Origin: a candidate division WOR-1 bacterium RIFCSPLOWO2_02_FULL_46_20
GTDB lineage: Bacteria > Margulisbacteria > WOR-1 > O2-12-FULL-45-9
NCBI GenBank assembly: GCA_001771365.1
Contig: METP01000040.1
Coordinates: 60,958-102,430 of the forward strand
Length of the DNA: 41,473 nt
Reading direction: 5' to 3'
In this document: piece after piece, positions 1,337 through 8,087 of the stretch
Layout of the letters: every line of letters starts with the position of its first letter
Position numbering within the stretch: position 1 is the first letter of the stretch
Notes under the pieces: generated by a model
Database searches by the model: none
What the model saw: only the letters and a program-made list of their open reading frames with translations
Told to the model about the DNA's origin: nothing
Made by a program: the position numbers and the translations under genes

Positions 1337-1485
1337 ACCGCAATTATAGCGGATATATTTGCAGTGTCAAGTAGTTTGCCTTTCTGTCAATAAAGTCCCG
1401 GCTCCAGCTTTCAAATCCCAACTCCTGAGGCGGATCCGCCTTTGGCGGATAATTCGCCCCGATATGACATCGGAGACAGGAACAA

Positions 1486-1526
1486 GTCCCGATGTTTTAA
1501 TCGGGATCCCGACTTTACGTCGGGAC
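1486..1526. repeat. Nested TCCCGA/TCGGGA palindromes
   Basis: Two adjacent small hairpins (TCCCGA 1487-1492 with TCGGGA 1501-1506; TCCCGAC 1507-1513 with GTCGGGA 1519-1525) also pair as one outer palindrome (GTCCCGA 1486-1492 with TCGGGAC 1520-1526). The block abuts the FGE 3'-end duplicate. It looks like a REP-like or terminator-like intergenic repeat. The rest of 1337-1485 holds a GGCGGATCCGCC palindrome (1429-1440) and nothing coding that I can support. Confidence 0.5.
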
Positions 1527-1719
1527 TCGAGGATTAACCTTTAAAAGTCCTGGCGAGACAAAAGCCAACATCGGGGCCGCGGCTCCCAGGAAGGTAATTG
1601 TAGCGACAATCGGCCTGCAGATAAACTGGAAAGTTGAAGTCCCACGAACCACCGCGAAGAACCGACTCTTTTGTCCATTTCCAAACATTTCCTATAAGAT
1701 CATACAAGCCTTCGGCGCT
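1527..1719 (-). pseudogene. Duplicated 3' end of FGE-fold gene (fragment)
   Basis: All 193 bases are identical to 7283-7475, the 3' end of the FGE-fold gene at 7290-8087. The copy includes the last 61 codons (from S205), the stop codon (1534-1536) and 7 bases beyond. It is in the same minus orientation and has no start, so it is a fragment. Identity ends abruptly at 1719/1720, where an istA tail in plus orientation begins. The perfect identity implies a recent copy event, or an assembly artefact. Confidence 0.9.
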
Positions 1720-1899
1720 CCCTATCTAAAAAACATCATCCTTCAGCCGCGGGCCGCCCGCGGCCTGAAAGAAACTCCGCCTATCGTCATTCCGGCCAAA
1801 CCAGCCTGGACACAGCTCAGCGTCGAAGAGCAAGATTTATCTTTGTACGACGAAATGTTCGAAGAGAAGGGAGAAAGCGATGGCCGGAAAACAAGCTAA
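1720..1899 (+). pseudogene. istA: IS21 transposase IstA, C-terminal remnant
   Basis: About 59 codons remain in one open frame up to TAA at 1897-1899. It overlaps the start of istB at 1880, as istA and istB normally do. The peptide (beginning PYLKNIILQP, with AKPAWTQLSVEEQDLSLYDE) has the low-complexity tail style of IS21 transposases that follows the DDE core. The catalytic core is absent. Assignment rests mainly on its position directly before istB. Confidence 0.6.
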
Positions 1900-2675
1900 T
1901 TCACCGGCCGGTATCTTGTCCTGTCCCAACACGCTGGAAGGGATGCTGGAATATCTGAATTTGCTCCACAGCCTGAAAAACTATCAGGGAACGCTGGAAG
2001 CGGCGGCCAAAGAAAACCTGTCGCACCAGGACTTTTTCCACCGACTGCTTTCTGACGAATCGTCCGCCAAATTCGCCCGGCAAACCCAAAATCGTATCGT
2101 CCAGGCCAGATTTCCTGCCCTCAAAACCATCGACAACTTTGACTTTAACCACCCGGCCAGTATTCCAAAACAAAAGATCCTTCACGCCCTGAACCTCTCT
2201 TTCTTGGATCAGGCAGGTGGTTTGGTCTTGATCGGCCCAACTGGTATTGGTAAGACCCACCTGGCCATCGCCCTGGGCTACAAAGCCGCCGGCGCCGGCG
2301 TGCGAACCCTCTATACGCGAGCTGTAGACATGATTAACCATTATCGCATCCCAAGCGGATCATAGCCTTCATAAAGCCATGAGGGTCTACAGCAGCCCGG
2401 CGCTGCTGGTCATTGATGAAGTCGGCTACTTGCCGTTTGATAAGCAGGGCAGCGACCATTTCTTTAATGTCATTTCCAGTCGCTATGAAAAAGGCTCGGT
2501 AATCTTAACGACTAACCGGCCATTCAAAGACTGGGGGGAAATATTCCATGACAATACGATCGCTGCCGCTATCATCGACAGACTGGCCCATCATTCAGAA
2601 GTGATCAAGATCGAAGGGGGCAGTTATCGAGTCAAAGACAGAAAGTTAAAAGATTCTCTCTCGACAACTGAATAG
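1880..2675 (+). pseudogene. istB: IS21 helper ATPase IstB, frameshifted
   Basis: IstB is the AAA+ helper that activates the IstA transposase. The N-terminal part (1880-2365, 161 codons) has a Walker A GPTGIGKTHLA. The second part (from about 2350 to 2675) has the Walker B-like LLVIDEVGYLPFDKQG and the family signature VILTTNRPFKDWG. The two parts lie in different frames. Reading QADHSLHKAMRVY in the second frame just after NHY in the first shows a single +1/-2 shift near 2340-2350. Joined, the protein would have normal IstB length, about 260 aa. The gene is inactivated unless the shift is a sequencing error. Confidence 0.85.
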
Positions 2676-3054: not shown

Positions 3055-4506
3055 CTATTCAGATTCGCGACCCTTTTTAACGAAAGGGAGCTCTGTATAT
3101 CGATTACAGTAGATAGCAACATCAAAGCCAAGGTTTCGGGTTCTCTGCCAGAGCATTTCGATAAAATCCTTAATTCTAGCGAACAGATTGTATATTTGCC
3201 TTGTTCTTTTTTTGAAATTTCTAGACTCTGCAAGTTTCAAAAAATTTGTTGCAGTATTAGAATGTCGTTTTATTTCTGCCTTAAAACTTTCAAGGCCTAA
3301 ACTATTAGATCGGCAGTCAAAGAAACTTTTCAAAGCTGGAATTTCTGCTGCGGTAAAATAAGTTGTTTTCCCTTGATGGATATATCCCAAGGCATTTTTT
3401 AACCTGTTAAAAAAACTTTCAGCTTCTGCCACTTGTTGGAGTTCGGTTGAGTTAATAAATCCTCTTGTTTCGAGCGCTTGCAACATATCCGTGCTATACG
3501 GGAGTCTTGCTGCGCAAAGCCCTGCTTCAGTCCTTAAAATCGCTTGGGCAATTTTGATTTTTCTGGTTTCAAGCGAAGGCGACAGCAGCCCCCTTGAGTC
3601 GATATCGCGACGGTCAATGAGGTACAGGCTCTTGAGCCAGATATTTGGAAAATAATAAGGGGCCAAGAGCTTTTCTTCGTTTTGATAGTAAGAACTGACC
3701 TGATCAAAAAATGATTTTACAGTTGTTTGATCGCTTACTGTTTCAATGGGCAGTGCATCGGCGGCAAATTTAGCGATCCTGATAAAGTTTTGCCGATTGT
3801 TGATTTGCACGGTTTTAGCTCTTCCCTTGCTTAGGGTGCTGATTAAGTTATCACTTTTAATGCCGCATTCAGCAAGGGTCTTTTCGATCTCCCCAGCCAA
3901 ATAATTAAAGTAAGCGCGGTTTTTACCCTGAAAAACAACAATAAAATCAAGGTCAGAGAGTAACGTTGATTTTCCTGCGCTGCCTGCCACCAGAAAGACC
4001 GCAAGTTGAGTCTCAGCTTGTCCAAACTTTTTCTTAGCTTTGTTCTGTGCGATTTTGACAATTCTTGGCATAACTTCAAGATGCAGAGCTCTTAAGGCGG
4101 GGGCGATGGCTTGCGCCTCGAATTGGTTCTCTATGGGCTTACAGCGCTCCGCTTCTAATATTTGTTCCATTTTCTGGCGGTACAAGCGCCTAATGTCTCC
4201 GATCTCAGCGGGAATATGTTTTGGGAGTTCAATTTTTATTTCAAGGAAATCTTCTTTTTCTACAAGGATAACATTTTCATCTGTACTCCGGCCGCTATTC
4301 AAAATTTCTCTTATTTGGGCCGGGGTGATAAATTGTGTGGCCCCGCTAAAACTTAGCTGGTGTATACCGTTGGGGAGGGGAAACTTGCCGCACAATCTGA
4401 AAGATAAATCCGGCACATGAGGATAGTGACTAAGCCTTTCGTGCAACGATCTTGCATAAAGACTGGCCTGTAATCTCAAGGGAGTTTTGCGCAGCGCTTC
4501 AAGCAT
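3055..4506 (-). CDS. GlnD/DUF294-like nucleotidyltransferase
   Basis: This 483-aa protein has a nucleotidyltransferase-fold core at residues 170-192: AVFLVAGSAGKSTLLSDLDF. The GS...SDLDF pattern with Asp185 and Asp187 matches the metal-binding motif of GlnD and DUF294 uridylyl/adenylyl transferases. The C-terminal half is helical and lacks an obvious HD or ACT domain, so it is not a full GlnD. The 170-residue N-terminal region is of unknown type. The substrate is unknown. It follows the membrane-protein gene at 4522-6318 with a 15-base gap, in which an extended -10 box sits 9 bases before the ATG; it may therefore be transcribed both from upstream and from its own leaderless promoter. Confidence 0.6.
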   Translation of the reverse strand: MLEALRKTPLRLQASLYARSLHERLSHYPHVPDLSFRLCGKFPLPNGIHQLSFSGATQFITPAQIREILNSGRSTDENVILVEKEDFLEIKIELPKHIPAEIGDIRRLYRQKMEQILEAERCKPIENQFEAQAIAPALRALHLEVMPRIVKIAQNKAKKKFGQAETQLAVFLVAGSAGKSTLLSDLDFIVVFQGKNRAYFNYLAGEIEKTLAECGIKSDNLISTLSKGRAKTVQINNRQNFIRIAKFAADALPIETVSDQTTVKSFFDQVSSYYQNEEKLLAPYYFPNIWLKSLYLIDRRDIDSRGLLSPSLETRKIKIAQAILRTEAGLCAARLPYSTDMLQALETRGFINSTELQQVAEAESFFNRLKNALGYIHQGKTTYFTAAEIPALKSFFDCRSNSLGLESFKAEIKRHSNTATNFLKLAESRNFKKRTRQIYNLFARIKDFIEMLWQRTRNLGFDVAIYCNRYTELPFVKKGRESE

Positions 4507-6460: not shown

Positions 6461-6536
6461 GCAATTAGAATCTTTTTATGAAATCATAGGCCAAGGTTAT
6501 TACTTTAGGGTAAAAGCTAAAAAGGATAAAGTGTAA
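6435..6536 (+). pseudogene. 3' tail of an unidentified gene
   Basis: An open frame of 33 codons runs from just after a stop codon at 6432-6434 through the IS-like scar to TAA at 6534-6536. The peptide KLDHLQLESFYEIIGQGYYF and its basic end VKAKKDKV look protein-like, but no start codon or ribosome site is present. It converges on the FGE-fold gene that ends at 6538. It may be a truncated gene remnant; I do not recognise the family. Confidence 0.3.
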
Positions 6537-6537
6537 T

Positions 6538-7218
6538 TTATTTGTCCTCGACAAGACGAACCGCGTAAGCGCCGCAACGACCCTCCGGGAGCCTGAAGTC
6601 GCGGAGGCCGCCGTCCAGGAGACGAAGAACATAAGTTGCACCAGAAAATTTAGTTTCCGTCCACGTCCAATGATTTCCAGATAAGTTATCTTTAGCCACC
6701 ATCCACTCATCTTCTGTCTGAACCCTGAATTTTCTTCCGGTTAAATTGCTCAGCCGTTTAGCAACTTCTCTAGCATTCAATAAGCTTACATAAGTTAAAG
6801 CGTTGCTTTCTTGCGCCGGGTCAGCAAGAATAGCTCTAAGTTCATCGTCATTATGGCCGGTGATTTCGTATCCCTCCATTACACGCTTAAATAAACCGAC
6901 CGTGAGCTCGCCTTTCATTATTTTTACCTTATCATTAATATCGATCATTTCCGGAATATCTATTTTAGAAGTTTGAGAAACAGCGGCTGCACTGACTTCT
7001 GCAACAGAATCAATTCCAACTTCGCTGATTTCTAAGGCTACTGGCTGGCGTTGGCTTATTATCTCAGCCGAAGCCGCCGGTGAATCTCCGGCGCGGAGGC
7101 TTGACGCTGCAAGGCCTGACAACCTTTGCCTCACAATCCTCAATTGAGCGTCAGCCCCTAATTTCCCATCTGATGCGCGGAATCGCCAACCTTCTATATT
7201 TACTCTCAATCCAGCCAT
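6538..7218 (-). CDS. FGE/C-type-lectin-fold protein, putative DGR target
   Basis: A 226-aa protein whose C-terminal half has traces of the formylglycine-generating-enzyme/SUMF1 (C-type-lectin) fold: TYVSLLNAREVAKRLSN, EDEWMVAKDN, then NHWTWTET at about 182-189 and a terminal AVRLVEDK. The N-terminal ~90 residues are unlike FGE. The last ~26 codons before VEDK (6550-6627) contain only 5 adenines in 78 coding-strand bases. Many are NNC or NNT codons (CTC, GAC, GGC, TTC, TGC, GCT) where lectin-fold DGR targets have AAC/AAT in the template. This is the pattern expected after adenine-directed mutagenesis. Start: ATG 7218, with AGGAGGA upstream. It lies downstream of, and shares a 25-base leader with, the FGE gene at 7290-8087. 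No signal peptide. Confidence 0.65.
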   Translation of the reverse strand: MAGLRVNIEGWRFRASDGKLGADAQLRIVRQRLSGLAASSLRAGDSPAASAEIISQRQPVALEISEVGIDSVAEVSAAAVSQTSKIDIPEMIDINDKVKIMKGELTVGLFKRVMEGYEITGHNDDELRAILADPAQESNALTYVSLLNAREVAKRLSNLTGRKFRVQTEDEWMVAKDNLSGNHWTWTETKFSGATYVLRLLDGGLRDFRLPEGRCGAYAVRLVEDK

Positions 7219-7224
7219 TTTATT

Positions 7225-7249
7225 TTCCTCCTAATTTTTTGACCTTTAC
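7225..7249 (-). promoter_or_regulatory. Leader copy 2 with Shine-Dalgarno
   Basis: These 25 bases are identical to 8094-8118, in front of the other FGE-fold gene. They include AGGAGGA, placed for the ATG at 7218. The coding sequences that follow are unrelated at their 5' ends, so the leader itself has been kept or copied. Confidence 0.7.
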
Positions 7250-7282
7250 TTGGGTGCTTAACCCGCTTTGCGCCGAGCCATT

Positions 7283-7475
7283 TCGAGGATTAACCTTTAA
7301 AAGTCCTGGCGAGACAAAAGCCAACATCGGGGCCGCGGCTCCCAGGAAGGTAATTGTAGCGACAATCGGCCTGCAGATAAACTGGAAAGTTGAAGTCCCA
7401 CGAACCACCGCGAAGAACCGACTCTTTTGTCCATTTCCAAACATTTCCTATAAGATCATACAAGCCTTCGGCGCT
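7283..7475 (-). repeat. 193-bp direct repeat, copy B
   Basis: Identical over its full length to 1527-1719. It covers the last 61 codons, stop codon and 7 following bases of the FGE-fold gene at 7290-8087. This is probably the parent copy, because here it is part of a complete gene. Confidence 0.9.
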
Positions 7476-8087
7476 TACGCCCGCAGGTTTTGATTTTACC
7501 GGCCTGGTACCGCTATCTCTATATACTGCCTTTGTTGGATCAAGATCGTTTCCCCAGGGCCGCATCTTCCCATCTGTTCCTGACGCTGCCCTTTCCCATT
7601 GACTTTCAGTAAGAAGGTCGCCTCCCAATAATCGCGCTATTGCTTCTGACTCATGCTTACTTACATATACTAATGGACAATTGCCTCTTTCGGCATCCGG
7701 CACATCAGCCGCAACTCTCCCCAATGATTTCTGTATCACTTCATCAACCGAATAACCATGAACCTTAAAGATTGCCCTCACTTCTTCTCCCTTTAGCGCT
7801 AAAAGTTCTTTCATCATGCCAATCGTAAAAGGTGTTTCGGCCATTTCAAATGTTTCAATTTCAGCGCGCTGACCTTGATAGATAAATCCTCCTCCCTCTA
7901 TTCTTTTAAACACCACGCCAATTCGCTCGGCAAGATTTACCCCCCTCAATGCTACCAGCCTCTGTAAGGCACTGGGATCATCTCCGGCTCTTACTCTTCC
8001 GGAATTTCCTGCTAATGTTTCCCTTCCCCTAATTAATTTCCATGCACCATTCAAAGCTTCTCCTTTTCGAACTCCAATTATTGCCAT
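7290..8087 (-). CDS. FGE/SUMF1-domain protein, putative DGR target
   Basis: A 265-aa protein with a recognisable FGE-sulfatase (C-type-lectin fold) domain. Motifs in order are RIEGGGFIYQG (about 63-73), PLVYVSKHESEAIARLLGG, LLTESQWERAASG (the family's LPTEAEWEYAARG), then GLYDLIGNVWKW (about 208-219), RGGSW (226-230) and VGFCLAR (255-261). The segment 231-254, normally rich in Asn in this family (RNNNNPDNRNNN-like), reads DFNFP...RYNYLPGSRGPD, encoded largely by NNC/NNT codons. This suggests a diversified variable region of a diversity-generating retroelement. The Cys at 258 replaces the usual Arg. It has no signal peptide; the N-terminal ~60 residues are of unknown function. Start: ATG 8087 after AGGAGGA. 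The enzymatic FGE cysteines are not evident, so a binding role is more likely than catalysis. Confidence 0.75.
   Translation of the reverse strand: MAIIGVRKGEALNGAWKLIRGRETLAGNSGRVRAGDDPSALQRLVALRGVNLAERIGVVFKRIEGGGFIYQGQRAEIETFEMAETPFTIGMMKELLALKGEEVRAIFKVHGYSVDEVIQKSLGRVAADVPDAERGNCPLVYVSKHESEAIARLLGGDLLTESQWERAASGTDGKMRPWGNDLDPTKAVYRDSGTRPVKSKPAGVSAEGLYDLIGNVWKWTKESVLRGGSWDFNFPVYLQADCRYNYLPGSRGPDVGFCLARTFKG

Follow-up and report, generated by a model that had tools for sequence, protein, structure and literature searches.

A likely former target and a probable target of diversity-generating retroelements in a Saganbacteria-class genome with broken reverse transcriptases

In the diversity-generating retroelement (DGR) of BPP-1, the RNA of a template repeat (TR) undergoes reverse transcription in which adenines are read at random, and a variable repeat (VR) upstream of a constant 3' end is overwritten by the resulting cDNA. 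The closest described systems to the loci reported here are bacterial chromosomal DGRs with Avd, of the BPP-1 Mtd/Treponema TvpA type. Shared features are a VR at the 3' end of a lectin-fold gene, Avd, a reverse transcriptase (RT) with a GIPIGNLASQ/YMDD type of core, an A-rich TR, changes at adenines only, and a constant 3' end. Unlike in those systems, our cassettes are ordered VR gene-avd-RT-TR, with the TR 3' of the RT; the two genes under study have neither RT nor TR beside them in the DNA analyzed, and both RTs of the genome carry deletions. In isolates of Treponema denticola without RT and TR, target genes were judged to be remnants of core DGR components, and a remote target in this species matches another TR better than its isolate's own (PMC4891356). 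Remnant and remote targets are therefore already known, and the present case is a further example, differing from T. denticola in that several broken cassettes lie within one genome and the VR of one locus exactly matches the TR of another. A 2021 metagenome survey described its own approach as unable to detect remote targets (PMC8144416), and in the literature available without subscription we found no paper joining DGRs with Margulisbacteria or WOR-1.

We analyzed a window of 41,473 nucleotides (contig C40:60958-102430) from a Saganbacteria-class MAG of 1.37 Mb in 70 contigs, 86% complete, and compared it with relatives at one genome per species. A sequence-only reading of the window had proposed two tandem genes with FGE-type domains as DGR targets. 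Both ORFs are present on the minus strand: gene 1 at 6538-7218 (226 amino acids) and gene 2 at 7290-8087 (265 amino acids). The domain assignment also held, directly for gene 2, which matches Pfam PF03781 (FGE-sulfatase; E = 1.5e-21), and by a detour for gene 1, which no Pfam model matched. A homologue of gene 1 at 55% identity (L074) matches PF03781 with an E value of 3.7e-7, and the families of the two genes match each other by profile comparison (hhalign 93%, E = 2.5e-7), placing gene 1 on a C-type-lectin/FGE-related scaffold. A PDB profile search with gene 1 gave no match, and its AlphaFold model (pLDDT 56, pTM 0.48) was too low in confidence to use.

Gene 1 is one of five paralogous variable genes that form a family in the MAG, the others lying on contigs C60, C45/C15, C29, and C21; its gene start is 88-89% identical in DNA to those of the paralogs, and the named relatives of the family are mostly Candidatus Saganbacteria/Margulisiibacteriota MAGs. 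The 26 codons preceding VEDK in gene 1 do hold only 5 adenines in 78 bases, as had been counted, compared with 31% A over the remainder of the gene (binomial P about 1.5e-7). When the whole window was scanned with TR_C60, the A-rich repeat of the C60 cassette, the best match was an 84-nt VR in this part of the gene (6547-6630, minus strand), which agrees at 48/56 non-A positions, the runner-up place agreeing at 31. The same stretch is the best window match to the TR of a relative, Ca. Saganbacteria G028 (JACRPM01), with 50/56 non-A positions matching. The differences fall mainly on template adenines: relative to TR_C60, 22/28 adenines but 8/56 other bases are changed (p = 1e-8), with 23/29 and 9/55 relative to TR_C45 and 22/28 and 6/56 relative to TR_G028; TR_G030 shows 15 non-A differences. 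A search of the genome with template adenines freed returned seven places, all of them VRs or TRs, while the reversed control returned 0. A TR-like match at C8:8002 was discarded as a chance likeness in a threonine-rich ACA-repeat gene.

Thus, the proposed marks of adenine-directed mutagenesis are present in gene 1, whereas a cognate template differing from it solely at adenines did not turn up: every TR compared has at least 6 non-A mismatches, and the best local TR has 8 of 56. Because the local TRs and TR_G028 disagree with the VR at 6 to 9 of about 56 non-A positions, we infer the template of gene 1 rather than read it from the assembly. At 14-16%, the non-A divergence from the local TRs is similar to that between the gene starts, a likeness consistent with loss of a cognate TR. 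The VR ends in a constant stretch (GCGGTTCGTCTTGTCGAG; 6547-6564, minus strand) that recurs in the TRs and in the VR of every paralog, as far as a final A in the TR or a final G in the VR; by its position and by analogy with BPP-1, it may serve as an IMH.

Behind gene 1, 28 nt downstream, lies a 14-codon N-terminal remnant of Avd (PKVITLAYDFIKRF followed by a stop; about 6465-6509, minus strand). The window had been described as free of RT, Avd, and template; it does lack RT and template, but this short Avd remnant had been missed. The stub aligns with the Avd starts of C60, C45, C29, and G028, which stand in the same place behind their VR genes. As the remnant directly follows gene 1, this gene once headed a cassette of its own. 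An internal deletion behind gene 1 removed a hairpin with a 13-bp stem that C60, C45, and C29 keep between VR gene and avd as an inverted repeat (CCCTCACACCAAA/TTTGGTGTGAGGG; L001:1090-1125, L043:about 4400-4440); in the aligned 3' flanks, this repeat is absent behind gene 1 and from G028. Efficient homing in BPP-1 requires a hairpin 3' of the VR (PMC3240598). The hairpins here have no GRNA loop and are missing from the intact G028 cassette; a comparable homing role is putative.

The retroelement had been expected elsewhere in the genome, and DGR-type RT sequences (C60, C45), Avd, and two A-rich TRs (C60, C45), both related to the 3' end of gene 1, are indeed there, with every assembled RT broken. 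A Pfam RVT_1 search of the genome hit one place, on C60. That locus (L001) comprises, in order, a gene 1 paralog (482-1063), an Avd-RT ORF (1135-1980), and the TR (1982-2065). The ORF, still open, fuses Avd (about 96 amino acids) in frame to the C-terminal half of an RT that carries GIPIGNLASQ and YMDD, a fusion that apparently arose by deletion at TTTGAGATG. C45 has the same order of VR gene, avd, broken RT, and TR, with the end of avd out of frame; in both cassettes the TR is 3' of the RT. NCBIfam model NF033474 (DivGenRetAVD; cutoff, 80 bits) scored 96.8 bits for the Avd of C45 and 81.6 bits for that of C60. C29 retains a VR gene, an Avd remnant, and the element that usually stands 3' of the TR, and C21 has a lone VR gene. 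C45 ends and C15 starts inside the VR gene or its leader; taken at first as a separate cassette, C15 most likely represents the flank upstream of C45, and the small differences in their overlapping ends suggest a strain mixture.

With the intact G028 RT as the query, the C60 RT covers only residues 148-334 and the C45 RT covers residues 1-113 and 251-328. In the sequence as assembled, motif A (CDIKSYFASID, residues 134-144 of G028 RT) is missing from both, catalytic Asp included. No intact DGR-type RT occurs in the assembled 86% of the genome, which contains just the two deletion derivatives; an intact one could sit only in the roughly 14% left unassembled. Judged on the assembled sequence, DGR action at present, in trans or otherwise, looks unlikely.

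The genome also contains a TR/VR pair that differs at adenines only: from TR_C45 to VR_C60, in trans, 18/29 adenines and 0/55 other bases are changed (p = 3.6e-11). VR_C45 departs from a TR_C60-like template at non-A positions 14, 28, 75, and 78 only, which fits a patch from such a template within its own flanks, though ordinary recombination from one cassette to another would look just the same. The sister cassette of G028 (L048) shares VR gene family, Avd, RT, and TR with the MAG loci and differs from them in being intact (VR-avd-RT-TR) with a clean pair in cis, in which 15/28 adenines and 0/56 other bases are changed. In three other genomes (G006, G017, and G019), near full-length RTs accompany TR/VR pairs with almost only A changes.

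A HEPN and nucleotidyltransferase pair (L046:1648-2354, L077:5158-5864) stands divergent to the C60 VR gene and, in G028, beside an unlinked VR gene. Genomes of different families share the pair at 87% DNA identity over 955 bp, which exceeds the identity of the RT cassette. A nucleotidyltransferase also adjoins the C15/C45 VR gene, and a similar ORF adjoins that of C29; the entire MAG has only 4 HEPN genes. Other cassette neighbors, named by eye from sequence, are presumably housekeeping genes (PurD, RecJ, TrmH-like, YchF-like), and Rfam models found only tRNAs near the cassettes. Viral contigs yielded neither relatives of the gene 1 family nor an exact match to the G028-like TR end, and hence no sign of phage carriage.

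An element of ~80 nt lies directly 3' of the TR at several loci (L048:3757-3836, L001:2065-2144, L043:3250-3334 on the minus strand, L050:3594-3673, and others). Across genomes in which the RT has 54-75% identity to that of C60, the element keeps 80-95% identity, and its predicted hairpin, enclosed by ACTTAA/TTAAGT, includes three pairs with two-sided changes. The element has no Rfam match and may form the 3' portion of the DGR RNA.

Gene 2 has an orthologue in G018 and paralogs in G029. Its end reads RGGSWDFNFPVYLQADCRYNYLPGSRGPDVGFCLARTFKG, as reported earlier, and the candidate variable region follows RGGSW (7320-7397, minus strand), in a position homologous to that of VRs paired with TRs in G006 and G017; the gene 2 end aligns with those VRs, which have real templates. 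Against the G018 orthologue, the VR differs at 0.48/0.52/0.35 of first, second, and third codon positions and the rest of the gene at 0.15/0.16/0.27, a pattern as expected for rewriting of first and second positions. Variation on this FGE-fold scaffold is thus concentrated at C-terminal VR positions. The suggested search for a template of gene 2 came back empty in this genome and in G018, both with its 3' end and with a reconstructed A-rich query. Because divergence peaks in the VR yet no template was found, we regard gene 2 as a probable orphan target; its sequence pattern makes a DGR origin likely.

An exact 193-nt copy of 7283-7475, covering the 3' end and VR of gene 2, lies at 1527-1719 (minus strand), where it abuts IS21 remnants. 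Behind this copy, alignment with the C45/C60 3' flanks shows 1380-1526 (minus strand) to be a homologue of the C45 3' flank, past the TR of that cassette. The direct repeat flanks a 5.56-kb segment with gene 1 and the IS21 remnants and could stem from single-crossover insertion, duplication, or a strain chimera. Beside the truncated copy, an IS21-family istB is split into two ORFs (1880-2365 and 2379-2675; window 1880-2675).

Genes of the FGE type that resemble gene 2 and have VR-like ends gave eight matches in G029 (loci L082, L089, L093, L095, L097, and L101) and six in G024. A DGR RT was not found in either genome, and these gene sets are possibly further orphan repertoires.

We conclude, with a probability of roughly 80%, that gene 1 is a DGR-family variable gene whose cassette has since decayed, leaving its VRs frozen, and that gene 2 is an FGE-type target that lost its template; gene 1 is then a former DGR target and gene 2 a probable one. 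A DGR family would have multiplied in the bacterium as cassettes ordered VR gene-avd-RT-TR, and the C-terminal VR of gene 1 would have been rewritten by copies of an A-rich template, with adenines read at random during reverse transcription and the product replacing the VR as in BPP-1. Most of the avd, RT, and TR belonging to gene 1 would then have been deleted, down to the 14-codon avd stub, while the C60 and C45 siblings would have kept their TRs and had their RT genes broken by deletions. Because both these RT genes are broken, the VR repertoire now appears frozen. As long as an RT was active, templates would have crossed between cassettes, as with VR_C60, which departs from TR_C45 at adenines and nowhere else. 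Gene 2 would most likely be an FGE-type target that is older or was acquired on a separate occasion.

Ongoing diversification in trans is less likely than this frozen state. An intact RT and the cognate TR of gene 1 might reside in the unassembled ~14% and still diversify both genes: the MAG is 86% complete and in 70 contigs, so an intact RT or TR could have escaped assembly and the system could still be alive; contigs break off at cassette repeats (C45 end, C15 start); the VR_C60/TR_C45 pair is perfectly clean; and all five ORFs of the gene 1 family, like gene 2, are intact. Yet two independent RT loci have both lost motif A, C45 avd runs out of frame at its end, gene 1 lacks the hairpin found 3' of the C60, C45, and C29 VRs, and it has non-A mismatches to every TR, all of which makes continuing activity improbable, if the least so among the alternatives. 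It is somewhat more doubtful that metagenome assembly created both the RT breakages and the 193-nt duplication as artefacts and that the real cassettes are intact. The overlap of the C15 and C45 ends with small differences and the exact repeat in the window would suit such an origin, but the breakpoints of the C60 and C45 RTs differ, fall within contigs, and remove different parts.

A far less credible source of the pattern would be ordinary divergence among FGE/C-type-lectin paralogs, with positive selection or gene conversion acting on their C-termini and no DGR involved. Families of this kind can diversify at ligand loops, and G002, G018, G024, and G029 have such FGE genes with no DGR RT found there; for gene 1, this origin is very unlikely given its A bias relative to genomic TRs beside RT remnants, and given the Avd stub. 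For gene 2, which has no TR, it retains some plausibility.

Returning to the decayed cassettes, we tentatively suggest, as a long shot, that the DGR cassettes of Saganbacteria first multiply and later lose their RTs, so that what remains is a frozen, still-translated chromosomal repertoire that has shared templates across cassettes. This would be a fixed library of paralogs rather than hypermutation of one gene, with the C60 Avd-RT fusion as a possible surviving part. DGR targets were recognizable in a window without RT or template and were then confirmed from the rest of the genome, which documents the decay of several cassettes and the use of templates across loci in one small candidate-phylum genome. 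If selection keeps the orphan genes, DGRs could leave lasting protein repertoires once the mutator is gone.
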